From IMG/VR virus record IMGVR_UViG_3300035698_011776, positions 1 through 27,763 of that record: a DNA stretch of 27,763 nt; one strand, given 5' to 3'. The stretch's first letter is position 1. The number at the start of each line of letters is the position of its first letter. The notes below the pieces were generated by a model. It worked only from the letters and a program-made list of their open reading frames with translations. It was not told the origin of the DNA and searched no databases. This stretch comes from a virus. Positions 668-27,763 of the stretch are shown here, piece after piece. The position numbers and the translations under genes are program-made.

Positions 668-1513
668 ATGAAAATTGCTAGAGTTTTTCCAACAAAAACA
701 AGAATGACACCAAGAGACCCTCATGCATATTATGGATTGCCGCCACCATTTACACCGCAATATGATGAAATACATATCTCTGTAGTTTTTACATGGGATA
801 TTGAAAAAGCAAAACTGTGGGCAAAGTCTTGGAAAGAATATGGCAAGGTTAAAATAGGAGGTCCCGCAATGGGAGATCCCGGCGGAGAATTTACTCCGGG
901 GAAATATATGGCCAAAGGTGTTACCATGACTTCAAGAGGTTGTGTAAATAAATGTGGGTTTTGTTTTGTGCCAAAAAGAGAAGGCGGTATTCGAGAATTA
1001 AAAATACAGCCAGGTTATATTATCCAAGATAACAATTTACTCGCTTGCTCAAAGCAACATAAAAATAAAGTATGGGCAATGTTAAAAAGAGAACAATCAA
1101 ATTCAAGATTTGGCATCGAATTCCCCGGCGGTTTTGAAGCAGCAAGAGTTGATGATGATGTTGTTGAAAATTTAAGGGGTTTAAGGATTCATCAGATCTG
1201 GTTGGCTTATGATAATCCCGGCGCAGAGAAACCTTTAATTAAAGCGGTTAAGAAATTAAAACCTTATTTCCAAAATATTGATCGAATTAGATGCTATGTT
1301 TTAATTGGCTATAAAAATGATACGGTTGAAAAAGCAGAAATACGATTGCGTAGAACTTGGGAAATAGGAGCCTTACCTTTTGCAATGTTATATAGAGCAA
1401 ATGACGGCACAAAAATAACTGATCCAAAATGGTCTAAATTAAGAACGGCTTGGTGTGTCCCGGCAATTATAAAACCTAGAGAAAAAAATACCCCACACAT
1501 AAGTTATGAGTGA
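668..1513 (+). CDS. phage radical SAM protein
   Basis: 281 residues, ATG with AAGGAG four to five bases upstream. The radical SAM cluster motif CX3CX2C is present as Cys92, Cys96 and Cys99 (RGCVNKCGFCFVPKREG). These residues would ligate a [4Fe-4S] cluster that cleaves S-adenosylmethionine to a 5'-deoxyadenosyl radical. A PGGFEAA segment near residue 153 is compatible with the glycine-rich SAM-binding strand. The first 90 residues (VKIGGPAMG, FTPGKYMAKGVT) resemble the short N-terminal part of the phage radical SAM proteins rather than a full cobalamin domain. No second Cys cluster (SPASM) is obvious. The substrate is unknown; nucleotide or DNA modification is a guess. It converges on the late operon. 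Confidence 0.85.
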   Translation: MKIARVFPTKTRMTPRDPHAYYGLPPPFTPQYDEIHISVVFTWDIEKAKLWAKSWKEYGKVKIGGPAMGDPGGEFTPGKYMAKGVTMTSRGCVNKCGFCFVPKREGGIRELKIQPGYIIQDNNLLACSKQHKNKVWAMLKREQSNSRFGIEFPGGFEAARVDDDVVENLRGLRIHQIWLAYDNPGAEKPLIKAVKKLKPYFQNIDRIRCYVLIGYKNDTVEKAEIRLRRTWEIGALPFAMLYRANDGTKITDPKWSKLRTAWCVPAIIKPREKNTPHISYE

Positions 1514-2268: not shown

Positions 2269-2691
2269 TTATTTATTCCAAGGTTTGATTTTTAAAACCA
2301 CATACCCTTCGTACTGCGGTTTCCCATTATTCAAATCTATTCTGCTTTCTACATTGATTTCTTTTAACCAGGTAACATCATTTAAATTGCCGATTGGATC
2401 TCCGCGTTCATATATATTAACATCTAAACCTAATCCTATTTTGTCATTGCGTTGAAAATCTCGGCCAGGCCTTCCCTCAGCTCCAGTTGCGCCATTCGCT
2501 CCATCGAAATAATCTACATCTTTAACCGGAGTATATCCATCGAAATAATCTACATTTTTGACTGGAGTATATCCGTCTGCGCCGTCAGCACCATCTGCGC
2601 CATCTTTAGGACAGCCCCAAAATGCCATTGCCGGAACAGTTAAAGATAACATTACTGCAATTACTAATACAACTATAAAAAACTTCTTCAT
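2269..2691 (-). CDS. secreted collagen-like protein
   Basis: 140 residues, ATG with GGGAGGGG upstream. A clear signal peptide covers residues 1-23 (KK, hydrophobic core, AMA cleavage site). A Gly-X-Y collagen-like region follows at about 31-78: three GAD triplets, two copies of a 12-residue unit containing YTPVK and DYFDG, then GANGATGAEGRPGRD. Such Gly-X-Y stretches form triple helices and are common in phage fibres and bacterial surface proteins. The last 60 residues look like a small beta domain. A Cys at 27, just after the cleavage site, does not make a good lipobox. Export by the host Sec route is expected. That is unusual for a virion protein and suggests a secreted or envelope-located product made late in infection. 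Confidence 0.65.
   Translation of the reverse strand: MKKFFIVVLVIAVMLSLTVPAMAFWGCPKDGADGADGADGYTPVKNVDYFDGYTPVKDVDYFDGANGATGAEGRPGRDFQRNDKIGLGLDVNIYERGDPIGNLNDVTWLKEINVESRIDLNNGKPQYEGYVVLKIKPWNK
2501..2572 (-). repeat. tandem 36-base repeat inside collagen-like gene
   Basis: Two adjacent 36-base units (2501-2536 and 2537-2572) differ at only a few positions and encode the repeated 12-residue YTPVK..VDYFDG unit. This is a coding tandem duplication. Confidence 0.8.
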
Positions 2692-6494: not shown

Positions 6495-9400
6495 TTATAT
6501 CCCATGTGCTTTCCAGCTAATAGTGCCGGTTCTTTCAGTAGCACCCCTATCTATTATTTTAATCGTTACTCCTTCTGTGTCAAGGCTCTCGTAGACCCAA
6601 TCAACAGCTTCACCAGAATTAATTTGAATATCTAGCTGAGGTGCCTCATGGAAAGTCTTAGCAAAAACGATATCAACACCGCTTGCTGCAACTGTTATTG
6701 TCCCTGTTCCAGTATCATCAATGTCTGGGAGATCAGCAATAATAACAAACGAACTTATTTGTAAAGCAATATCGACAGAATCCCTAGTTGTTGTCGCTCT
6801 TACTTGAAAATATCTACAAGTATAATCAGCAAAAGACCATTCCTCCCAATCGCTCCATGTTGAATTATCTTCAGATGTTCGGATTTCTACTAAAGTATTG
6901 CTTGGAGTTTCTAAGCCAGAAAATCGCATAGTTGCACTATCGTCAAACCGCCTTGTTGGATCTGAATCCCAACTTAAGGATTGATTAATAGTCGTAATTA
7001 TATTTACCATTACTCGGACATCACAAATATAGCCAAGATCTTTTATGGACGAATAATAAGCTTGCGATAATTCACCGGTTTCAAAGGCTAAGTTTGCGCT
7101 AGAAATATAATATCCACTACCTCCAGTTTCTTCTATAACTCTGAACATCATGTCAGAATCAGAAACAAGATTCCAAGTTAAGGTCCCGCCATTGTAACGT
7201 GTCATATTCCCATCAGCAAATGCCGATGAAGATAAGTCTGCTCTCCACGCAACATAAACAGTATCACTCTTAGTGTATCCACCCTGTAAAACAATCCAAT
7301 ATTTTGTTGATCCAGTTAAATCTACATTACTCTGCATTAAGAATCTTATCCACCGAGCAGTCATTCCGATAGAACTAGCCTCAACTGGGTAAGAAGTTGC
7401 AATAGGGGTGCCGTCAGGCTCGCCTGCGCTATCGCCTTCAATCGTAACCCAAATCTGATTAGTATCTGCTAATGAACTTGAACTAGAAGAACTCGACAAG
7501 CTAGATGAACTTGAACTCGACGAACTGCTAACAAACATAGAACTCGATGAACTAGAAGAACTTTCTGATAAACTCGAAGAACTTAAACTCGATGAACTTG
7601 AACTAGAAGAATTTAAACTCGATGAACTTGAACTCGAAGAACTCGATGAAACACTAGCATAAGAACTCGATGAACTCGATGAACTTGAACTAGAAGAATT
7701 TTGACTTGAACTCGACGAACTCGAACTAGAAGAATTTTGACTAGAACTCGATGAACTGCTTACTGATAAAGAACTTGAACTAGATGATGATGAACTTGAT
7801 GATAAAGAACTTGAACTAGAAGAACTCGATGAAAACACATTCCCTGTTTCTATAAGTTTAAGCATTACTTGTTCTAATGTTATAGCACTTCCCGGAGTAA
7901 AAGATTGAGCAAGTTTTTCATAATTTGTAGTAACAGCTCTTAAAGGATATTCACCATCTTCGGTTGCAACACAATAAATATCTGAATTGTCAAGCCAATT
8001 TGTATGTTCATTATAAGTTTCTACTATGTTTTGAAAAGGAATATTAGAAATTGTTATAACTGCTTCTGTTGCATTAACAGAATAGTTTCCAAAATTATCA
8101 ATCGCCTTTATCCAATAAGATTGATCGGTTCCTATTCTTATATCCGGTAAAGCATCTCTAACCCCGAACACAGGAGTTTTAACAATACCACCAGAATTCC
8201 AATCCGTCCCTTTTCTAATTTCATATTTTTGTACATCCGGCTCGCTTGACTTATCCCAAGAACAAAATAATACATCGCGATTTTTCTTAACAATAAAACC
8301 ACTAACAGCCGCAGGATTAGCATCTTTTCCAATAAGCCTTAATTGATCAGAAACAAATCCGTCAGAGTAAATTCGGTTATCAGAAATTGTTTTTATCCTA
8401 ACATTATAACCTTCGTTAAATTCAAGATCTTGCGTTATTACATAATGCGAAGTTGTCTTATTAGCATTAGTTACAAATAAATAGTCACCAAATTCTTTTT
8501 TTATTTCAAGAGTATACCCGACAAGCCTATCGTAACCGGTAGCGGGAGGTGTCCAATTTACATGTATTTGTGAAATATGAACTCCGTCAGCATTTCTCCA
8601 ACCAACTTCACTAAGAATAATACTAGAAACTTCGGCTATAGGAGCATAAGGATTCTCCGGAGAACCATAATCCCAATCCTGGAAAGAAGAACCATGCGCA
8701 TCGTTTAACAAAGAAGAATTATAAGCCTGGCAAATAAATTTTGCTTTGCCATATTCTGTTTCAGTTATTTCCATTACTCTAAATAATGCGGCTGTCCAAT
8801 TTGGCCTTGAATGGGTTACAGAAACAACGTCCATTGGTTCACAATGCAACGCTTGCATACCGCATTCAAACTCACACCATATATCATTTATTTTTGATTC
8901 ATACATTATCTTTCGGCCAATTCTTGACGCTTGGCTTTGACGAATAATTCCATTGCATTCGATAGTGCTATCGACAATTCCTCTAAAAACTTGATCGAGT
9001 TCATCTTCAATAACTTCAACTCGTTTTGGATTTTTACTTTCAAGCGGAGATATATATTCAACACTTAATTTATTTGCGTTTTCTTCTCCTCGGCCATATC
9101 CATAAGTAAAAGAATCTTTTAAAATATTATTTTCTGTAAAAGCCATAACTGCGGTTTCATTAGCTTTTTCGTATGCTATTTTATATTGCGTTCCACTTTT
9201 TATTAAAGAGGCATTACATGTAATAAGAATCCTAGAAAGGTTATCTAAAACAGATCCTTTTTCATCTATAACTAAATCAAGTTCATAGCGAGGTTCAGTT
9301 CCTCCGCTACCATTATTTATTTCTTCAGCGCAGTGTTCAAAAAAATCACCAAAACTTGCATTGTTAATAAATTTTTCATCTAAACCTGCTCCACCTAATA

Positions 9401-10085
9401 CTTGGCTTAAGATCAAATAATCTCTTATTACTGCGCTTGTATTTTTAGAAATATTTACTGCATTTGCTGTCCAGTTTTCGCTAGTCGAATTCCATGTTTG
9501 TATTTTTCTTCCTGTAAGTTCTACGGTAACTACAGAATTACTACTTACCTTTTCTCCTGCTTTTAAAGTAACTGCAACATAAGCAACATCCCTTAACCCT
9601 TTAACTGTCCCTGCTCCTCTTGAATCAACCGTTTGGCTTGAAGTCCCTAAGTATGCAGTATAACTACAGTCAGTAAAGTCTGCTATATCTTGATCGTCAA
9701 GTTTAACATTACTTATGGCCGAAACTTCTCCTGCGGAAATGGCTAAAAATCTTTGTACCGTTATGCCTGGTTCTGATTGCCAGATTATATTACCACCCAT
9801 AACCAGTGGCCCACCATAAACAAGCGGTAAAATTCCCGCATTAGAATAAGTATTATCAAGTCCGGGTCCATAACGGCTAGAAGTAGGTTTAGTTTTTTGG
9901 CGTTGAGATAATGAGTAAGCGATAGAAGCTACAGTCATTGCAGCTATAAATGGATGTAGCCAAGCATAGTCAACTATCCAAGCACCAACAGTCCAGATAA
10001 TTGTTATTGGATTTGCATGTGCTTGCCTAATGGCAAGCAATGTAAAGAAGATGAAGAACAAAAATATTTGTTTTAATTTTCCCAT
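6495..10085 (-). CDS. J-like central tail hub / tip attachment protein
   Basis: 1196 residues, overlapping the NlpC-like gene by 13 bases; the SD is weak. Hydrophobic segments lie at about residues 7-24 and 28-60, followed by RYGPGLDNTYSNAG and ILPLVYGG, a hallmark of J-type hub proteins. Residues about 70-470 form the hub. About 478-690 hold fibronectin III-like repeats (VNWTPPATGYDRLVGYTLEI). A beta-sandwich of the choice-of-anchor type starts near 725 (AQSFTPGSAITLEQVML). It is interrupted by a 120-codon Ser-rich tract (752-871) and resumes with IWVTIEGDSAGEPDGTPIA. The C-terminus (FHEAPQLDIQ ... GTISWKAHG) resembles tip lectin-like domains. It should form the trimeric hub that contacts the host and triggers DNA release. 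Confidence 0.88.
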   Translation of the reverse strand: MGKLKQIFLFFIFFTLLAIRQAHANPITIIWTVGAWIVDYAWLHPFIAAMTVASIAYSLSQRQKTKPTSSRYGPGLDNTYSNAGILPLVYGGPLVMGGNIIWQSEPGITVQRFLAISAGEVSAISNVKLDDQDIADFTDCSYTAYLGTSSQTVDSRGAGTVKGLRDVAYVAVTLKAGEKVSSNSVVTVELTGRKIQTWNSTSENWTANAVNISKNTSAVIRDYLILSQVLGGAGLDEKFINNASFGDFFEHCAEEINNGSGGTEPRYELDLVIDEKGSVLDNLSRILITCNASLIKSGTQYKIAYEKANETAVMAFTENNILKDSFTYGYGRGEENANKLSVEYISPLESKNPKRVEVIEDELDQVFRGIVDSTIECNGIIRQSQASRIGRKIMYESKINDIWCEFECGMQALHCEPMDVVSVTHSRPNWTAALFRVMEITETEYGKAKFICQAYNSSLLNDAHGSSFQDWDYGSPENPYAPIAEVSSIILSEVGWRNADGVHISQIHVNWTPPATGYDRLVGYTLEIKKEFGDYLFVTNANKTTSHYVITQDLEFNEGYNVRIKTISDNRIYSDGFVSDQLRLIGKDANPAAVSGFIVKKNRDVLFCSWDKSSEPDVQKYEIRKGTDWNSGGIVKTPVFGVRDALPDIRIGTDQSYWIKAIDNFGNYSVNATEAVITISNIPFQNIVETYNEHTNWLDNSDIYCVATEDGEYPLRAVTTNYEKLAQSFTPGSAITLEQVMLKLIETGNVFSSSSSSSSSLSSSSSSSSSSSLSVSSSSSSSQNSSSSSSSSSSQNSSSSSSSSSSSSYASVSSSSSSSSSSSLNSSSSSSSSLSSSSLSESSSSSSSSMFVSSSSSSSSSSLSSSSSSSSLADTNQIWVTIEGDSAGEPDGTPIATSYPVEASSIGMTARWIRFLMQSNVDLTGSTKYWIVLQGGYTKSDTVYVAWRADLSSSAFADGNMTRYNGGTLTWNLVSDSDMMFRVIEETGGSGYYISSANLAFETGELSQAYYSSIKDLGYICDVRVMVNIITTINQSLSWDSDPTRRFDDSATMRFSGLETPSNTLVEIRTSEDNSTWSDWEEWSFADYTCRYFQVRATTTRDSVDIALQISSFVIIADLPDIDDTGTGTITVAASGVDIVFAKTFHEAPQLDIQINSGEAVDWVYESLDTEGVTIKIIDRGATERTGTISWKAHGI
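7473..7832 (-). repeat. poly-Ser tract inside the hub (120 codons)
   Basis: Residues 752-871 are nearly all Ser, in runs of 7-10 broken by single L, V, Q-N, Y-A, M-F or E residues. Codons alternate between TCN and AGY. It sits inside a beta-sandwich domain rather than at its edge. Confidence 0.95.
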
Positions 10086-11340: not shown

Positions 11341-12135
11341 TTATGTGCTTAAACTAGAACTAGAAGAACTCGACAAGCTAGATGAACTTGAACTCGATGA
11401 TCCAGTAGAACTGCTTGAACTTGAACTTGATGCTATCGAAGAAGAAGAAGAAGAAGAACTTGAGCTTAAACTTCCAGAATAACTTGAGCTAGAACTCGAA
11501 CTAACGCTAATAGAACTACTTGATGAACTAGAACTTGACGAGCTAGAATTACCGTTTGTTGGAACATAATAATCCCACCTTACTTCTTTTAATGCCATAC
11601 CAGTATGAAGTAATTGATAAGCGGCCAAAACTCTTGTTAATTTATCTTCTTGGAACCTAACTCTAAAATAAAATTCGTGCGACAATAAAATTGTACCGCT
11701 CGCAGGGGGAGTATTAAAAACAATATAAGATTTTTCAGTAATATAATTATTAATTAAAGAATAACTAGTTTCCGCAACTCCGTCTACTGTACAAGAACTG
11801 TTGCCAGAAGTATCTACAGGGAAATTTGCAAGTAAAAAAGAATCTTCTGACGCGTCACCAACGCCTACAGGTTCGTTTGTAACTATATATTCATGTTCTA
11901 TTTTAATTAAAAAATCATCCTTAGAACCTTGTCGTTCAATAAAAAATTCCCAGATAACATCCATTGCTGCTTTTGTTAAAAATTTGCAAGTTAGTTTATA
12001 ATCTCTTATTCCATCATCCCATAAAGAATCCCTATATTCTTTACCACTTTCAGATTCGGTTATGTTTGTTCTAAATGAAATCGATTCTTCTAATCCAAAC
12101 TCTGGCGTTAATGATAAAATATGATTATATCCCAT
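11341..12135 (-). CDS. distal tail protein, M-like / DUF2460-type, poly-Ser tail
   Basis: 264 residues, ATG with AGGA. Residues 1-196 are the folded part. EYRDSLWDDGIRDYKLTCKF and DVIWEFFIERQGSKDDFL follow the pattern of the DUF2460/minor-tail M family, which links the tube to the hub. FYFRVRFQEDKLTR and the final ALKEVRWDYYVPTNG close the domain. Residues 197-264 are a Ser tract with scattered I, V, Y, G, L, A and T that ends two residues before the stop (LST). The folded part is complete without it, so the tail is an appendage. Its DNA shares a 41-base identical block with the hub tract. Confidence 0.72.
   Translation of the reverse strand: MGYNHILSLTPEFGLEESISFRTNITESESGKEYRDSLWDDGIRDYKLTCKFLTKAAMDVIWEFFIERQGSKDDFLIKIEHEYIVTNEPVGVGDASEDSFLLANFPVDTSGNSSCTVDGVAETSYSLINNYITEKSYIVFNTPPASGTILLSHEFYFRVRFQEDKLTRVLAAYQLLHTGMALKEVRWDYYVPTNGNSSSSSSSSSSSSISVSSSSSSSYSGSLSSSSSSSSSSIASSSSSSSSTGSSSSSSSSLSSSSSSSLST
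11344..11547 (-). repeat. poly-Ser tract, C-terminus of M-like protein
   Basis: 68 codons, dominated by Ser with mixed TCN/AGY codons. A run of TCT codons (+ strand GAAGAAGAAGAAGAAG near 11441) is the only homogeneous stretch. Confidence 0.93.
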
Positions 12136-12139
12136 TTTA

Positions 12140-14065
12140 TTATCCTAATTTTTGAGAGGTTCTGCGCAATGAAAGATTATCCCTGATACCTCTTTCGCTT
12201 GCACTTGTATATATATCTCCATGACGTTGTAGATGTTCTCTGAACGACTTAACATCAATAGTATTTATATTGTAAGTATTCCCACCACCATTACCACCAA
12301 CACTACTTTGTCCATTATTTAATTTATCAAGATTGCCAACACCGATAGTCCTAGTAGCTTGACGATTTAAAACATATTCACCTGACAATAAAGTGGCCGG
12401 AACTTCTCCACCGTTATGAAATTTCTGCCGAGGACGCATTCCGTAAGCCATGCCTTCTCTTACCGCACCTCCGGTATGAGAAAAACCTAAAAATCCACCT
12501 GCACCTGCACTCTTTAAAGTATTCATTATTATTATATTCGCAATAACTTCCATTATAGATGCAAGCATCTTATCGCCGAAAGCAACAACAGCATCGCTCA
12601 ACCCTTGCATGTCGCCTTTAACAGCATTCACAAATCCATCTTTAAGCATATCTCTTGAGCCTATAGTAAAATCGGATAGCATTGATTGAGTTGCTCCAAT
12701 TAATTCTAAAATACTCTGCTCGGATTGTTTCCCTTCTTCTGATATAGCAAGGATTCTTTTTTTTCTTGCAGCCTCATTCTTTTTCGCTCCTGCTTCAAGT
12801 TTTGCATAAGAATCAATAGCATCCTCACCCAAGTTTAATATTTCTTTACCCATTTGCTTAACGGATTCCTGAGAATTTTCCGCCATAAAACCCATTGTCG
12901 TACCAAACTCTTTTGCTCTTTCAGACGCATCCATTAAAGCCTCGGCTTGATTTTTTAATCCGGGAATAAATTCAGCAACTTTCGCGAGCATTTCAATAAA
13001 GTGAGCAGCGTTATTTGCAAGAGAGGCAAAACTACTAGCAACACCGGCCAAGAACACATGCATTGATATCATAAAAGTCATCCATACTGCTCTTATCGTA
13101 GTAATTATTCCAATCATTCCTGCGCCAATCTTTAACCAGACACTATAAAAACCATTTGAACTTTCAGTTGCATCTTCAACTGAACCTTGCATTTCATTAA
13201 AACTATCACCAATCATCCCAAGGGCAGAAGCAACGACAGGAGATTTAGTTATTATAAAACCAAGCGATTCTTTAAAATCTCCTACGGATTGATTTGTTAT
13301 ATCTACCGTTCCTTTAAAGGTAGCTCCTAAAGCTTCGGCTGTTCCGCCAACACTCCTTTTTATATCTTTAAGAATATCGTCAAACTCTCCATACTTTTTT
13401 GTAGTTTCGGAAAGATTAACACCTGAGCGTTGTAATGTAGAAACTTGGCCATCAAAAGCTTGCCCTAAAATCCTTGCGGTTGCAGTCAAATCTTTAGTTG
13501 AGCCATCTGCCTTACGAGTTCCGGCATTAAGATCTAAAAGTGCCGGAGTAGCTTTTCTTATCTGAGCCTCAGTTAATCCAAAACTTGCAAGCATTCCTTG
13601 TGATGCAATTATTTGATCATCACCATAGCCAGTAAGTTTTTGTAATTCACTTGCATAATCCTGCAGTCTTTCGGCCGAGCCTTCGGTAGCTTTCCCTGTA
13701 GCATGGAATGCAGAGGCTAAACGAATTTCAGCATTTTCTTGTGTCATGGCCGCGGCAGTTAAATCTCCCACAATTTTCATAACAGGACGCATGATAAAGA
13801 AATAAACAAGTAACTTGTTTCTTAAAGAACCAATAGCGCCTTCTAATGCGGCTATTGATCTACCTTGCATCCGAGCTTTTCGACCAGCTTTTTCATGGGA
13901 TTGGCCCATTTTCTCAAGATCAAGTTGTGTTCCTTTGCCTACGGTTTTGAGAGCGATACCCATTTTTTTGGCACTATCTGTCATGGCCTTATTAGCGGCA
14001 ACAAACTTATTTGTAGCTTCGTCTTTAAATGTTAAATAGACTTTAAATTTTTCGTCGTCGCCCAT
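12140..14065 (-). CDS. tape measure protein
   Basis: 641 residues. ATG at 14065 is chosen because AAGGAGC lies seven bases upstream; a TTG two codons earlier is too close to that site. The N-terminus is helical and rich in Lys/Ala (KAMTDSAKKMGIALKTVG). About 80-270 matches tape-measure repeats (AEIRLASAFHATG, DDQIIASQGMLASFGLTEAQ, ATARILGQAFDGQVSTLQRSG). Hydrophobic segments at about 308-360 suit the membrane-inserting part. The C-terminus has the typical HTGGAVREGMAYGMRP and LLSGEYVLNRQATRTIG. It fixes tail length and exits before DNA. By the usual ratio of about 0.15 nm per residue the tail would be near 95 nm. The gene is the largest between chaperone and tip genes, as expected. Confidence 0.92.
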   Translation of the reverse strand: MGDDEKFKVYLTFKDEATNKFVAANKAMTDSAKKMGIALKTVGKGTQLDLEKMGQSHEKAGRKARMQGRSIAALEGAIGSLRNKLLVYFFIMRPVMKIVGDLTAAAMTQENAEIRLASAFHATGKATEGSAERLQDYASELQKLTGYGDDQIIASQGMLASFGLTEAQIRKATPALLDLNAGTRKADGSTKDLTATARILGQAFDGQVSTLQRSGVNLSETTKKYGEFDDILKDIKRSVGGTAEALGATFKGTVDITNQSVGDFKESLGFIITKSPVVASALGMIGDSFNEMQGSVEDATESSNGFYSVWLKIGAGMIGIITTIRAVWMTFMISMHVFLAGVASSFASLANNAAHFIEMLAKVAEFIPGLKNQAEALMDASERAKEFGTTMGFMAENSQESVKQMGKEILNLGEDAIDSYAKLEAGAKKNEAARKKRILAISEEGKQSEQSILELIGATQSMLSDFTIGSRDMLKDGFVNAVKGDMQGLSDAVVAFGDKMLASIMEVIANIIIMNTLKSAGAGGFLGFSHTGGAVREGMAYGMRPRQKFHNGGEVPATLLSGEYVLNRQATRTIGVGNLDKLNNGQSSVGGNGGGNTYNINTIDVKSFREHLQRHGDIYTSASERGIRDNLSLRRTSQKLG

Positions 14066-14788
14066 GTTCAAGCTCCTTTAGTGGATTATCTTTATTCTCT
14101 GCCATTGCTGAATCTAATATATCAAATACTTGCATTATTTTATTTGGCTGTTCTTCTGAACCCCCAGAAAAAGGTAGCCATCCTTTTTTATACCGATTGT
14201 ACATTCTTATATAATCATTTATTTGTGAGGGTAATTCTTTTGCCGGACATCTTTCAGTGAATTTTACTCCATCTACTTCTATCGGTTGCATCGGAGTATC
14301 TTCACACCCTCTAAATTTCTTCAGGCCATCGTTACAATTCTGGCAGCTTAAGCCCAGGTTAGATAATATAACTGCCAGTTTTATTTTTTTTCCTCTTCCT
14401 CCTTGACATTGTTACTGCCCCAAATTTCCATAGCAAGTTTATGGATAGCATACAACGGAATCATTTTTAATGAATCTAAGGTTACGACATCCAAATCTTG
14501 TTTTGCAACTTTTTCTTTTTCAAAAATAAGTTTAACTTCTTTGCCTTCTAATATCCAATTTCTAGTCCCTTTAAGACCGTACTTACAAATTTCAAAATCA
14601 TTACTTACGATATCATCGCCCATTGAATAGACAGGTTTTCCGTCAACAATTTCAAGGGTTCCTACACCGGCTATTACTTTTGACGCTAATACAGAATCAA
14701 GAGATCCAATAATCCAAATAGTAGGATTCTCTTTATCTGATTCTAATGTATATTCTCTTGTCAGTCCGACTGCAATAGGATCTATCAT
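14043..14788 (-). CDS. tail assembly chaperone frameshift fusion (GT-like)
   Basis: A -1 slip at A AAA AAA (14384-14390) joins the 135-residue chaperone to 113 further residues. The new frame runs without a stop from 14384 to TAA at 14043-14045, giving about 248 residues. The extension starts IKLAVILSNLGLSCQNCNDG and continues through GCEDTP and MQPIEVDG to TERCPAKEL and a helical tail (NDYIRMYNRYKKGW). It contains Cys pairs CxxC, GC and RC that can form one metal site. Starting at the ATG at 14291 would lose three of the four Cys, and that ATG has no SD. Lambda gpGT works the same way: its T part binds the tail tube protein. The end overlaps the tape measure start by 23 bases. Confidence 0.82.
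14340..14404 (-). promoter_or_regulatory. programmed -1 frameshift signal
   Basis: Three elements follow each other on the minus strand. An SD-like AAGGAGG lies inside the coding region at 14398-14404. Seven bases later comes the slippery heptamer A AAA AAA (14384-14390), part of a run of eight A. Five bases after that a stem-loop starts: CTGGCAG (14372-14378) pairs with CTGCCAG (14340-14346), extended by one G-U and one A-U pair. The zero-frame stop TAA sits directly after the heptamer. The same three-part layout drives frameshifting in E. coli dnaX. Confidence 0.85.
14381..14788 (-). CDS. tail assembly chaperone, zero-frame product (G-like)
   Basis: 135 residues, ATG with AAAGGAG eight bases upstream. 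The sequence is acidic in its C-terminal third and ends WGSNNVKEEEEKK just before TAA. It lies immediately upstream of the tape measure, where lambda gpG, which coats the tape measure before tube assembly, is found. The last codons GAA AAA AAA are the slip site for a -1 frameshift that extends it into the next frame. N-terminal GLTREYTLESDKENPTIWIIG resembles the chaperone start found in many siphophages. The family call rests on position plus the frameshift signal. Confidence 0.8.
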   Translation of the reverse strand: MIDPIAVGLTREYTLESDKENPTIWIIGSLDSVLASKVIAGVGTLEIVDGKPVYSMGDDIVSNDFEICKYGLKGTRNWILEGKEVKLIFEKEKVAKQDLDVVTLDSLKMIPLYAIHKLAMEIWGSNNVKEEEEKK

Positions 14789-14800
14789 TACTAAACTCCT

Positions 14801-15286
14801 TTATTGTGTTATTCTTAAATGTTTTTTTTTGGATTTTATTCCTTGGCTTTTTACCCAACGAGCAAATCTATCTCTCGTCTTTTTAACCATTTCATTAGAC
14901 ATGCCTAAAAATCTTCTTATAGTTTTTGAGTGCTTATTCACTCCCTCGTTTTGATGAATATTTCCAACGAAATCTCTACGAGGAATACCTCTTGAAATAA
15001 CTCTCACTTCAACATTATTCTTTGTTGATTTATATGCATGTACTGCGTTTAACATTACCCCCTTTCTAATCAGAGCCTTAGTCGGCGTTTTAGATTTTGC
15101 TTTTTTCTTTGCTGCTATGGTTTTTTTAGTAAGAGGTGCATAAGGCTTTCCTTTTATATCAATTTGCGCTCTCATGTTTTTTTGAATATCTCGAACAATA
15201 GCATCCCCTATTTGTTTTAAGGGGATGCTCGCATCCTCATAAGATGGTTCAATTAAATCAGCCTCTATCTTAATACCAAAACTCAT
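14801..15286 (-). CDS. virion morphogenesis protein, Mu gpG-like / tail completion
   Basis: 161 residues, ATG with AAAAGGAG. The pattern DIQKNMRAQIDIKGKPYAPL followed by TKKTIAAKKKAKSK is that of the phage virion morphogenesis (Mu gpG / tail S) family: an amphipathic helix, then G-x-P-Y/W-x-P-L and a Lys-rich helix. A second signature lies at HSKTIRRFLGMSNE, where members have RxFLGxS. The C-terminus is very basic. Such proteins complete the head-tail connection or the tail tube end. Its place between the tube protein and the chaperone agrees with this. Confidence 0.78.
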   Translation of the reverse strand: MSFGIKIEADLIEPSYEDASIPLKQIGDAIVRDIQKNMRAQIDIKGKPYAPLTKKTIAAKKKAKSKTPTKALIRKGVMLNAVHAYKSTKNNVEVRVISRGIPRRDFVGNIHQNEGVNKHSKTIRRFLGMSNEMVKKTRDRFARWVKSQGIKSKKKHLRITQ

Positions 15287-15300
15287 AAAGCTCCTTTTAC

Positions 15301-16281
15301 TTAAGTGCTAGATGAAGAACTTGAAGAACTCGAACTTGAACTAGAGGCCATCGTTAATGTAAGTTCATCATTTCCACTATCAGAATTTTTACAAATTTCA
15401 CACACCGCATTAACAACCGCGATTCCACCTCTATCTCCAGCTTTTTGAGTGATGTATCTTACTGCCGGCAATGAGAATGTTGTTTTATTTCCTTGCGAAT
15501 CACCAAGAACAATTGTAACGGCTGCAGTCGCTCTTGATAAAAGCTTGCCGATAAAATCATGGCTAGACATTGCAACAAGTTCTGGATCAAAACTCATTTG
15601 CGGATTACGGCCAGTTACTTGAGCATAATTAATCCCACTAGCATCAGACGGTAATGCAGAAAGCACAATTTCATTTTGCATATCTATTTCGAGATTATCT
15701 AAAACCAATGTGCTTCCTAATATAGTAACACTTGCACCCATAAATAACATAGGTACTTGAGCCGGATATGTAGGAGAAAGCATAGCCTCGTCAGCATGAC
15801 TTGCATATTTTCCTTGCATTGCAAACTCACACATTATCGGTTCGCCAACTTTCATCTGGAATTTAACATTCCCAGCACAACCAAGCATATTCTTTCTAAA
15901 ACCATCAATGTAATGCGCGATAGAACCAGTTACAAAGCTTGATGAAATAGGAACAAAGATATTAGAAACTCCAACATCTAATGTTTCAGAAAATCCGCAC
16001 ATTCTTAAAAAAGGACTTATTGGTGTAGTAACTCCTTTTGCCGTTGTTAAAGGCCCCATTAATTCAGCTTTAAAAGCAAGATCCATCTTCCTAGCTCCAA
16101 CTTCTGAAGCAAACCTCGACATGTGTTTTGTTACTGGATTCCTTTTAAACATTTCAGGGGACAAATCCATTACCGGTTCATACACAAGAATAGTAGCCTC
16201 TGTTGCTGTTAGCGTTTCTGCTGTTCCGGCTACTGATTCTACTTTACCTGCCAATTGAGCAATTCTAGTAATCTTACCCAT
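15301..16281 (-). CDS. major tail tube protein with short poly-Ser end
   Basis: 326 residues, ATG with AAAGGAGGG. The order tail terminator, this gene, morphogenesis protein, chaperone, tape measure identifies the tail tube subunit. VESVAGTAETLTATEATILV near the N-terminus is the usual opening of phage tube proteins. The rest is beta-rich, with a plausible second half in VPMLFMGASVTILGSTLVLD. The last 15 residues are AS with 13 serines in a row and T. The tube is a polymer of many hexamers, so even this short tail would appear in well over a hundred copies on the virion, if exposed. The C-terminal end of many tube proteins lies on the outside. Confidence 0.85.
   Translation of the reverse strand: MGKITRIAQLAGKVESVAGTAETLTATEATILVYEPVMDLSPEMFKRNPVTKHMSRFASEVGARKMDLAFKAELMGPLTTAKGVTTPISPFLRMCGFSETLDVGVSNIFVPISSSFVTGSIAHYIDGFRKNMLGCAGNVKFQMKVGEPIMCEFAMQGKYASHADEAMLSPTYPAQVPMLFMGASVTILGSTLVLDNLEIDMQNEIVLSALPSDASGINYAQVTGRNPQMSFDPELVAMSSHDFIGKLLSRATAAVTIVLGDSQGNKTTFSLPAVRYITQKAGDRGGIAVVNAVCEICKNSDSGNDELTLTMASSSSSSSSSSSSST
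15307..15345 (-). repeat. 13-codon poly-Ser tail on tube protein
   Basis: Thirteen consecutive Ser codons of mixed type, one residue before the stop codon. Confidence 0.95.
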
Positions 16282-17575: not shown

Positions 17576-17893
17576 TTACTTCGCGCTAGAGCTTGATGAA
17601 CTCACACTCTTTGACGAAGAAGATGAACTTGACAAACTGGAACTAGATGAACTTGAGCTTAGAGATAATGAACTCGAAGAACTTGAACTTGAGGAACTCG
17701 AATAATAAGTTACCCCATCGTCTTTTGCTTTTCGGTTCGGCACACCTCTATCTAAAACTCCCTTGCGATAATATAGAATGATGTTACATTCTTCTTTTCT
17801 AAAGTTATATGCTCCGCAAGCTTCGTTCTCACAAGTTATACCGGCCCCTGCATTGTCGTTTTTAAACGGACATAAATAACTAGGTGCTGACAT
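17576..17893 (-). CDS. Cys4 mini-protein with poly-Ser tail
   Basis: 105 residues, ATG with AGGAG. Residues 1-64 contain Cys8 (CPF), Cys21, Cys26 and Cys36 (ITCENEACGAYNFRKEEC), likely a zinc or Fe-S site. YYRKGVLDRGVPNRKAKDDG follows, then YY and a 41-codon Ser-rich tract with L, K, V and a terminal AK. A folded knob of about 60 residues on a serine stalk is an unusual combination. It lies between the head surface candidates and the connector, so it could be a head- or neck-associated accessory protein. The Cys pattern is shared with the protein at 3834-4193. Confidence 0.6.
   Translation of the reverse strand: MSAPSYLCPFKNDNAGAGITCENEACGAYNFRKEECNIILYYRKGVLDRGVPNRKAKDDGVTYYSSSSSSSSSSSLSLSSSSSSSSLSSSSSSSKSVSSSSSSAK
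17579..17701 (-). repeat. poly-Ser tract, C-terminus of Cys4 protein
   Basis: 41 codons. Ser runs of 6-11 are broken by L, K and V, with mixed codons. Confidence 0.93.
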
Positions 17894-17905: not shown

Positions 17906-18535
17906 TTAAGTTTTGCTTGAGCTAGATGAAGAACTCAAACTGGATGAACTACTTAAACTACTAGAACTTGAACTACTACTCAAACTAGATGAACTAGAGC
18001 TTGAAGAACTGCTCGACAAACTAGAGCTTGAAGAACTCGATGAAGAACTCGACAGGCTTGAAGAACTTGAAGAACTCGAACCAATACTTGAGCTTGAAGA
18101 ACTACTTGAGCCAATATAGCTTGAACTTGAAGAACTACTCAAAGACGAACTCGAAGAACTCGAAGAACTCGAAGAACTAGATCCTGTACCTGTAACATTT
18201 GGAGAAACAGCATACCAATAAGTTCCACTACACCAGAACTCAACAGTATCAAATGCCGTCATATTTATATAATCGTAATTTACTCCTCCACCACCAAAAC
18301 CACCGGAAACATAAACTCGCCCGGCAGAATCATCTGCATGAACAACTAAAGTAACGCCTTTAAGATTACCGCTCGCTGCCGGCAAAGTTAAAACAGCATT
18401 ACCACTTAATTTAATGAAAGAATATCCAGAACGGAAGATATCATCCTCTGTCAAAGAATAATCCGCTGCTTTTTCAAGAGCGGTTCCTCTCATTTGTGCT
18501 AAAAAATATTTAAAGGTTAATTTCTTACCTGCCAT
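17906..18535 (-). CDS. small head/surface protein with poly-Ser tail
   Basis: 209 residues, ATG with AAGGAGG. Residues 1-118 form a domain with AALEKA-like start (KYFLAQMRGTALEKAADYSL), LTPAASG-type strand LTLPAASGNLKGVTLVVH, then VYVSGGFGGGGVNYD and FWCSGTYWYAVSP. Residues 119-209 are a Ser tract with L, I-G and Y-I breaks, ending KT. Its neighbour downstream of the capsid gene (18588-18938) has the same domain without the tract. Two small paralogs just after the major capsid gene are typical for decoration or head-surface proteins. The exact role is inferred. If it decorates the head, several hundred serine tails would surround it. Confidence 0.65.
   Translation of the reverse strand: MAGKKLTFKYFLAQMRGTALEKAADYSLTEDDIFRSGYSFIKLSGNAVLTLPAASGNLKGVTLVVHADDSAGRVYVSGGFGGGGVNYDYINMTAFDTVEFWCSGTYWYAVSPNVTGTGSSSSSSSSSSSSSLSSSSSSSYIGSSSSSSSSIGSSSSSSSSLSSSSSSSSSSSLSSSSSSSSSSSLSSSSSSSSLSSSSSLSSSSSSSKT
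17909..18181 (-). repeat. poly-Ser tract, C-terminus of head surface protein
   Basis: 91 codons, Ser with L, I, G and Y. The antisense strand reads as Glu/Leu/Asp codons and creates a false acidic ORF. Confidence 0.93.
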
Positions 18536-26800: not shown

Positions 26801-27763
26801 TTACCTCCTCGATATAAAATTATATTCGTGACTTGTATTTTCTAGTTTATATTCATGCGTTGTATCTTTTAATTTATATTCGTAAGTAACATCTTCAAAA
26901 ACAAACTCCGCAGGATGTGTTGAGCTACTTGAAGAAGATCCTGTTGAACTGCTTGATGAAGATGAACTTAAAGAACTGCTTGATGATGAAGAACTCGATT
27001 GGCTTGAAGAACTCGATGAACTCGACAAAGAAGAAGAACTAGAACTCGATGAACTCGATTGGCTTGATGAACTCGATGAACTCGACAAGCTCGATGAAGA
27101 ACTTGAACTCGATAAACTCGATGAAGAACTTGACGAGCTTAAAGAAGAAGAACTTGAGCTAGATGAACTCGATAAACTCGATGAAGAACTTGAACTCGAT
27201 AAACTCGATGAAGAACTCGAACTCGATAAACTCGATGAAGAACTTGAACTCGATAAACTCGATGAAGAACTTGACGAGCTTAAAGAAGAAGAACTTGAGC
27301 TAGATGAACTCGATAAACTCGATGAAGAACTTGAACTCGATAAACTCGACGAAGAACTTGAACTCGATAAGCTGAAAGAACTAGAAGAACTCGACGAACT
27401 CGAAACACTTTCCGCACTCGAAGAACTCGATGAACTGCTTGATAAACTACTTGAGCTAGATGAACTCGACAATGAAGAAGAACTCGAACTCGATAAACTC
27501 GATGAAGAACTTGACGAACTTAAAGAAGAAGAACTTGAACTCGATGAACTCGATAAACTCGACGAAGAACTTGAACTCGATAAACTCGATGAAGAACTTG
27601 ACGAACTTAAAGAAGAAGAACTTGAGCTAGATGAACTCGATAAACTCGACGAACTCGATGAACTCGATAAACTCGATGAAGAACTTGAACTCGATAAACT
27701 CGATGAAGAACTTGACGAACTTAAAGAAGAAGAACTTGAGCTAGATGAACTCGATAAACTCGA
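26801..27763 (-). CDS. giant poly-Ser protein, 5' end outside window
   Basis: The frame is open from the stop at 26801 to the window edge, so at least 320 residues are visible and the start is not. A TTG at 27472 lies inside the repeat and is not a credible start. About 281 residues are Ser runs of mostly 8 separated by single Leu, with a few Q, F, V, A-E and T-G breaks. The last 39 residues after the tract are THPAEFVF and three copies of a short beta-like unit (TYEYKLK, THEYKLE, SHEYNFI). The protein is a long serine-rich chain anchored by a small C-terminal tail domain. It is the first gene seen in the late operon, ahead of terminase. It may be a fibre, a secreted glycoprotein or a virion component. 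No function is known. Confidence 0.7.
   Translation of the reverse strand, partial: SSLSSSSSSSSSSLSSSSSSSSLSSSSSSSSLSSSSSSSSLSSSSSSSSSSLSSSSSSSSLSSSSSSSSLSSSSSSSSSSLSSSSSSSSLSSSSSSSLSSSSSSSSLSSSSSSSSSAESVSSSSSSSSSFSLSSSSSSSSLSSSSSSSSLSSSSSSSSSSLSSSSSSSSLSSSSSSSSLSSSSSSSSLSSSSSSSSLSSSSSSSSSSLSSSSSSSSLSSSSSSSSLSSSSSSSSQSSSSSSSSSSLSSSSSSSSQSSSSSSSSSLSSSSSSSSTGSSSSSSTHPAEFVFEDVTYEYKLKDTTHEYKLENTSHEYNFISRR
26921..27763 (-). repeat. 27-base periodic Ser8-Leu repeat
   Basis: Most units are 27 bases (Leu plus eight Ser), with occasional 33-base units (Leu plus ten Ser). The marker GACGARCTT recurs at 27132, 27273, 27513, 27600 and 27714. Its spacings of 141, 87 and 114 are sums of 27 and 33. The tract reaches the window edge. 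Confidence 0.92.

Follow-up and report, generated by a model that had tools for sequence, protein, structure and literature searches.

A serine tract in a loop of a tail-tip domain and a candidate disordered coat in uncultured tailed phages

What is a stretch of 120 residues, 101 of them serine, doing inside a protein of a phage tail tip, and how does that protein accommodate it? The locus lies on a 27,763-base uncultured virus record, the whole of which was analysed and is called the window here. Its minus strand carries the structural module of a tailed phage, with genes for a terminase, a portal (assigned by gene order), a capsid protein (Phage_capsid_4), a tape measure protein, a DUF2460 distal tail protein, a BR0599/Gp84-like protein and a J-like tail-tip protein. 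Elsewhere in the window, positions 668-1513 (plus strand, opposite to the structural genes) encode a 281-aa protein whose CxxxCxxC-like motif (GCVNKCGFC) suggests a radical SAM enzyme, and positions 2269-2691 (minus) a protein of 140 aa that contains a tandem repeat (YTPVKNVDYFDG) and a collagen-like run, GADGADGADG. An original prediction, made from the DNA alone, had held that the tract replaces the hairpin between consecutive strands of one choice-of-anchor-type beta-sandwich, in a loop open to solvent, and had proposed a surface function at the tail tip. We consider it probable, at roughly 0.68, that the serine tract lies in a loop of an optional tail-tip domain and is part of a selected, virion-wide, hydrophilic and disordered coat.

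One predicted beta-sandwich around the serine tract

The tail-tip (hub, or host-specificity) protein, P0001, is 1196 aa long (6495..10085, minus) and matches PHROG 31 ("central tail fiber J", E 1e-51), Pfam Phage-tail_3 (E 1.5e-11) and, under the cut-off, an NCBIfam TipJ-related family (E 7e-17). The PHROG 31 and Phage-tail_3 matches, together with a tail-tip gene order in which the BR0599/Gp84-like and DUF2460 genes lie upstream, fit a lambda J-like tail-tip protein. Its poly-Ser tract occupies residues 752-871 (7473..7832, minus), exactly the coordinates first predicted, although the "120 serines" of that prediction are 101 serines in 120 residues, interrupted by L, V, N, Q, Y, A, E, M and F. 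Serine makes up 9% of P0001 outside the tract, and against the protein's own serine frequency the binomial log10 P of the tract is -84.6, which excludes a chance origin; nor is it a simple codon run, since TCN and AGY serine codons are intermixed along it. Short linkers stand on either side, the local order being AQSFTPGSAITLEQVMLKL-IETGNVF-tract-LADTNQ-IWVTIEGDSAGEPDGTPIA.

The part of P0001 that follows the tract matches the NCBIfam choice-of-anchor R profile (choice_anch_R, NF041539) from profile position 45 or 46 to 152, at 21.9-26.5 bits against a cut-off of 30, the shortfall probably arising because the tract splits the domain; the tract-bearing copy L013 reaches 32.4 bits and so passes the same cut-off of 30. 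When the post-tract part was used as a query it found L021, a hub of the same architecture without a tract, reading ...KLAQSFTVGGSNITVDKIALFMSQVGTITAGDVWLTIEDDSPGDPDG..., whose NF041539 match is continuous from profile 20 to 133 (47 bits, cut-off 30). Both halves of the profile are present and in order in P0001, the pre-tract AQSFT...LKL and the post-tract IWVTIE... aligning on L021. The two pieces of the split domain can accordingly be delimited as residues 709-751 (7833..7961, minus), which include AQSFT...LEQVMLKLIETGNVF and are assigned by their place within the structural-match range (model residues 28-70) and their alignment with L021, whose choice_anch_R match starts at profile 20, and residues 872-996 (7098..7472, minus), assigned by the profile match, the AlphaFold model and VIA-align. 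The C-terminal region of the hub then follows (6498..7097, minus), placed by alignment; in hubs that have no such domain it comes within ~50 residues after IPFQNI...W.

All tract-bearing hub copies match NF041539 only from profile position ~43-53 onward, and the tract therefore sits at a common profile position, near 44. A serine tract of about 90-186 aa occurs at that loop point in five divergent hubs, and it is by this tract that the hub domains differ from the choice-of-anchor R family to which they are homologous. At the same point L021 has a short loop, SQVGTITAGDVW, and the non-hub copies L022-L025 have similarly short ones. The alignment with L021 also corrects one detail of the original prediction: the tract does not replace a hairpin, as loop residues remain on both sides of it (IETGNVF and LADTNQ, versus SQVGTITAGD in L021), and it is therefore an addition that lengthens the loop.

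An AlphaFold model of the region encoded by window positions 7011-8042, built on a ten-row alignment, predicts strands at model residues 34-37, 43-48 and 54-65 ahead of the tract, in which pLDDT stays under 50 throughout, and further strands from 196 to 304 after it, so that strands 54-65 and 196-205 flank the tract and both flanks fold together around a disordered segment. The tract-free comparison model, that of L021, is weak in the choice-of-anchor R domain, with pLDDT about 60. In Foldseek and VIA-align comparisons, single PDB domains match across both flanks: a phi812 baseplate protein (9eui_Q; VIA-align Z 16.5, rmsd 3.0, 153 residues aligned over model residues 28-315), the central fibre (gp20) of mycobacteriophage Douge (8zdp_v; Z 13.4), a PBCV-1 capsid protein (8h2i_bG; Z 13.2, 142 residues aligned over 148 of the chain) and Cwp84 (4d59_A; Z 13.1). 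These proteins share a common fold with the hub domain (Z 13-16.5) and all belong to virions or cell surfaces, at a sequence identity to it of only 9-19%; a PDB sequence search with a profile of the domain's C-terminal part returned nothing useful.

A profile search on P0001 alone matches the post-tract side only, as one would find if a serine linker connected two distinct domains, one in each flank. That arrangement is extremely improbable, given that the NF041539 match runs unbroken across the insertion point in L021, L022, L023 and L025 and that the structural matches cover both sides of the tract; neither the AlphaFold model nor the fold matches revealed two domains. Profile match, model and VIA-align thus agree with the original prediction that the flanks are consecutive strands of one sandwich, and show the tract, itself predicted to be disordered, inside a single predicted choice-of-anchor R domain, a lectin-like beta-sandwich toward the C-terminal end of P0001. 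The exposure of the loop to solvent, which that prediction had also held, is a sound deduction, the homologous folds coming from baseplates, a central fibre and capsids and the length of the tract being free.

Serine tracts across the virion proteins of one clade

The domain that carries the tract is itself optional. It is entirely absent from at least three distinct hub relatives (L002/L003, L005 and L009/L010), in which IPFQNI...W to ...GYICDARI spans 56 residues, free of the domain; hubs L006-L008 and L011 have different ends and likewise lack it, and in L012 it directly follows the protein's central part and ends the protein. One insertion, the tract, thus sits within another that is itself optional. 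Tract-bearing hub copies come from the window, from G012, G013 and G014, all with tracts in other proteins too, and from the short contig G011, and the tract-free hub L021 comes from a tract-free genome, G015.

Five other proteins of the window bear serine tracts, of 13 to at least 281 aa, and in four of them the tract is a C-terminal tail. These are the DUF2460 distal tail protein (gene 11341-12135, minus), with a tail of 67 aa at 11347..11547; a probable tail-tube protein, identified from gene position only (gene 15301-16281, minus), with a run of 13 aa at 15307..15345, the corresponding tails being conserved in relatives at 13-38 aa; a 105-aa protein (gene 17576-17893, minus), with a tail of 39 aa at 17585..17701; and a 209-aa probable head-decoration protein, identified from its position near the capsid gene, with a tail of 89 aa at 17915..18181 (minus). 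The fifth is a large serine-rich protein cut by the end of the window (window 26801-27763), with a poly-Ser region of at least 281 aa (26921..27763, minus), homologues in relatives and a conserved acidic and aromatic C-terminus (FVFEDVTYEYKLK...). Its gene lies two genes from that for terminase in the tract-bearing genomes that cover the region.

Large serine-rich proteins are also found at L149:11713-12855, L216:3149-6070, L217:2259-6308 and L220:1255-4941, in which poly-Ser is preceded by an N-terminal part that varies and followed by a C-terminal repeat that is conserved (such as EFKDDTYDYKFK). Adjoining the gene in L149, which belongs to a tract-bearing genome, is one for a tract-free choice-of-anchor R-like protein of 308 aa (L149:12846-13799), and the domain is therefore not always tract-carrying in tract-bearing genomes; sequence homologous to this protein is fused to the large serine-rich protein in L218 and L219.

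Across relatives, tracts were present in 40 of 50 loci of the distal tail protein, 46 of 58 of the probable tail tube, 39 of 39 of the 105-aa protein and 43 of 62 of the 209-aa protein, locus counts that include near-identical and overlapping records. None was found in the relatives' loci of eleven other families (NlpC, BR0599, tape measure, major capsid protein, TerL and six further ones), and serine-rich ends of the portal occurred in 2 of 46 loci, both short. In a capsid tree from which near-duplicates had been removed by capsid protein, the trait changes once, separating 17 tract-bearing from 7 tract-free genomes with support 100/100 (three genomes undecided), and the tree of the probable tail-tube protein agrees with this single change. 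The hub tract is thus one instance of a virion-wide trait, in which a fixed set of protein families bears serine tracts and the rest do not, and which falls on a single branch of the phage phylogeny. The surface function first proposed, confined to the tail tip, is too narrow a reading, with tracts present on five other window proteins and absent from the eleven families just mentioned.

Long polyserine linkers are known from enzymes of Saccharophagus degradans and Cellvibrio japonicus, often beside carbohydrate-binding modules (PMC2386152), and the phage tracts, of the same composition class, could likewise be plain flexible linkers with a role limited to domain spacing. In the large serine-rich proteins the tract stands between two ends, one of them conserved, and a plain linker role would fit there too. 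Polyserine linkers, however, separate the functional domains of depolymerases, whereas the phage tract lies within a domain or at the end of a virion protein: the hub tract has one domain on its two flanks and joins no two, and in four other window proteins the tract is a tail at the C-terminus, followed by two residues at most. As a general account, spacing alone is very unlikely.

Conserved composition and drifting length

How the tracts change between close relatives bears on whether the protein or the DNA is what matters. In six tracts compared over four genome pairs, all in other proteins, as the hub tract is without a close tract-bearing relative, 15 point changes were synonymous and none was non-synonymous, where ~23% synonymous would be expected from random changes; the chance of 15:0 is about 3 in 10^10. 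Length, on the other hand, differs in frame between near-identical flanks (115 versus 97 aa, 65 versus 74 aa) and, in another phage family, between close relatives (958 versus 948 aa), lengths taken from metagenome assemblies in which repeats have perhaps partly collapsed. Among close relatives, then, selection keeps the tract residues serine while their number drifts, and selected composition with unselected length is as expected for a disordered coat or tail. The other family comprises the near-identical phages L037, L069, L078 and L085, with serine tracts of 911-958 aa in one protein.

In twelve related genomes, most interruptions of the tracts lie a single step away from a serine codon, with Leu and Phe accounting for 237 of 518 and Pro for 2, counts that are non-independent owing to tandem duplication. 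Proline is scarce among them though Pro and Leu/Phe are each one transition from TCN codons. In L014 (on contig G013) and L042 the tracts are interrupted by Cys-Arg, in L014 in four proteins and with different codons, because of which the dipeptide itself seems, on this codon pattern, to be kept there.

Tandem arrays within tracts, in-frame length changes between near-identical genomes and interruption residues that differ in part from genome to genome (L in the window, CR in G013) are all features of a DNA repeat that is selfish or purely mutational, in which slippage-prone TCN/AGY repeats would have spread genome-wide and been tolerated where harmless. Such an origin is nonetheless very unlikely, in view of the 15:0 ratio, of the same families being tract-bearing across the clade and others not, and of five-codon words being shared between genes no more than codon usage predicts (0.063 observed versus 0.088 under a codon-usage null), a comparison that likewise gave no support to intragenomic copying of tracts between genes.

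A candidate coat, its possible glycosylation and its breadth

The reading we prefer, a selected coat of which the hub tract is one part, would work as follows. Exposed, flexible serine tails and loops would form a hydrophilic layer on the outside of the virion, with the probable tail tube, the distal tail, the tip and the head decorations as its sites; the tracts would lie at C-termini and in one tolerant hub loop because exposed sites can carry long disordered sequence. Such a layer may tune adsorption, solubility or shielding, and may carry glycosylation.

This last element could be extended, tentatively, to tracts that are substrates for O-glycosylation, their serines loaded by phage or host glycosyltransferases to give a glycan-coated virion. 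Seven tract-bearing contigs, from about six distinct genomes, have two genes next to the large serine-rich gene, one GT9-like and the other GT8/Nucleotid_trans-like with an invariant LDADM motif, a pair found in 0 of 2 long tract-free contigs; DegT genes occur on contigs G013 and G030, on G013 together with a GT1-like gene. The GT9-like and GT8/Nucleotid_trans-like genes of L149 lie at 14037-16088, with homologues in L216-L220, and methyltransferase genes adjoin them in G002. Against this, G013 and L170 are tract-bearing without the GT8-like/GT9-like pair, and the enzyme assignments, except for DegT and the methyltransferases, fall under curated cut-offs. Moreover, sugar genes are not tract-specific, as four GT2 domains and a DegT gene are also present on G036, a contig free of tracts; general glycosyltransferase families were for the same reason rejected as a marker of tract-bearing phages. 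In searches of PDB sequences, the GT328 family profile gave nothing useful and the sole match of the GT277 profile was a weak one to GT9 (E 0.007). More doubtful still is the specific proposal that the phages of the clade glycosylate their virion-wide poly-Ser coat themselves, with enzymes whose genes adjoin that of the largest serine protein, into a mucin-like shield or adhesive layer.

Poly-Ser reaches beyond this clade. An exact pattern scan of IMG/VR found at least 118 stretches and at least 113 loci with tracts of at least 20 aa, up to about 950 aa and, among the matches listed, in many different proteins; with at least 113 such loci, poly-Ser can be called common among uncultured phages. 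In 102 phage proteomes surveyed earlier, low-complexity regions averaged 33 aa and were at most 115 aa long, with Ala, Gly and Pro most enriched (PMC6821194); the tracts here run to 120 aa in the hub, to over 281 aa elsewhere in the window and to about 950 aa on other contigs. A search of genome contigs with the hub found no relative, one with the capsid protein found a single phage-sized MAG contig (L170), and the isolated phages of the collection held no match to the post-tract domain and only distant ones to the capsid protein, the best being Microcystis phage Mae-JY22 at 33%.

That phage tails are decorated by optional folded domains is well known, and the trait described here can be regarded as a kind of optional surface decoration in which disordered serine takes the place of folded modules. 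The known Ig-like, FN3 and carbohydrate-binding modules decorate the C-termini of major tail proteins, distal tail proteins and neck proteins; they are optional, and that of SPP1 is dispensable for infection (PMC8718954, PMC6669499). The kinds of site are the same, but those modules are folded, whereas here a disordered, homopolymer-like sequence is borne by several virion proteins at once. A search of the open literature, with most subscription journals outside it, found no report of a virion-wide serine-tract trait, and a coordinated set of long, disordered tracts, shared across a clade, borne by a constant group of virion proteins, maintained as serine by selection and present even inside a folded domain, has to our knowledge not been described before. 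The hub offers a natural case in which a homopolymer-like tract splits a domain and leaves the predicted fold intact, with a tract-free homologue as control. Should the glycosylation proposal prove true, these phages would have a mucin-like layer on a bacterial virus that extends as far as a loop in the tail-tip binding domain. The coat itself amounts to a testable prediction about the outer surface of many uncultured phages.
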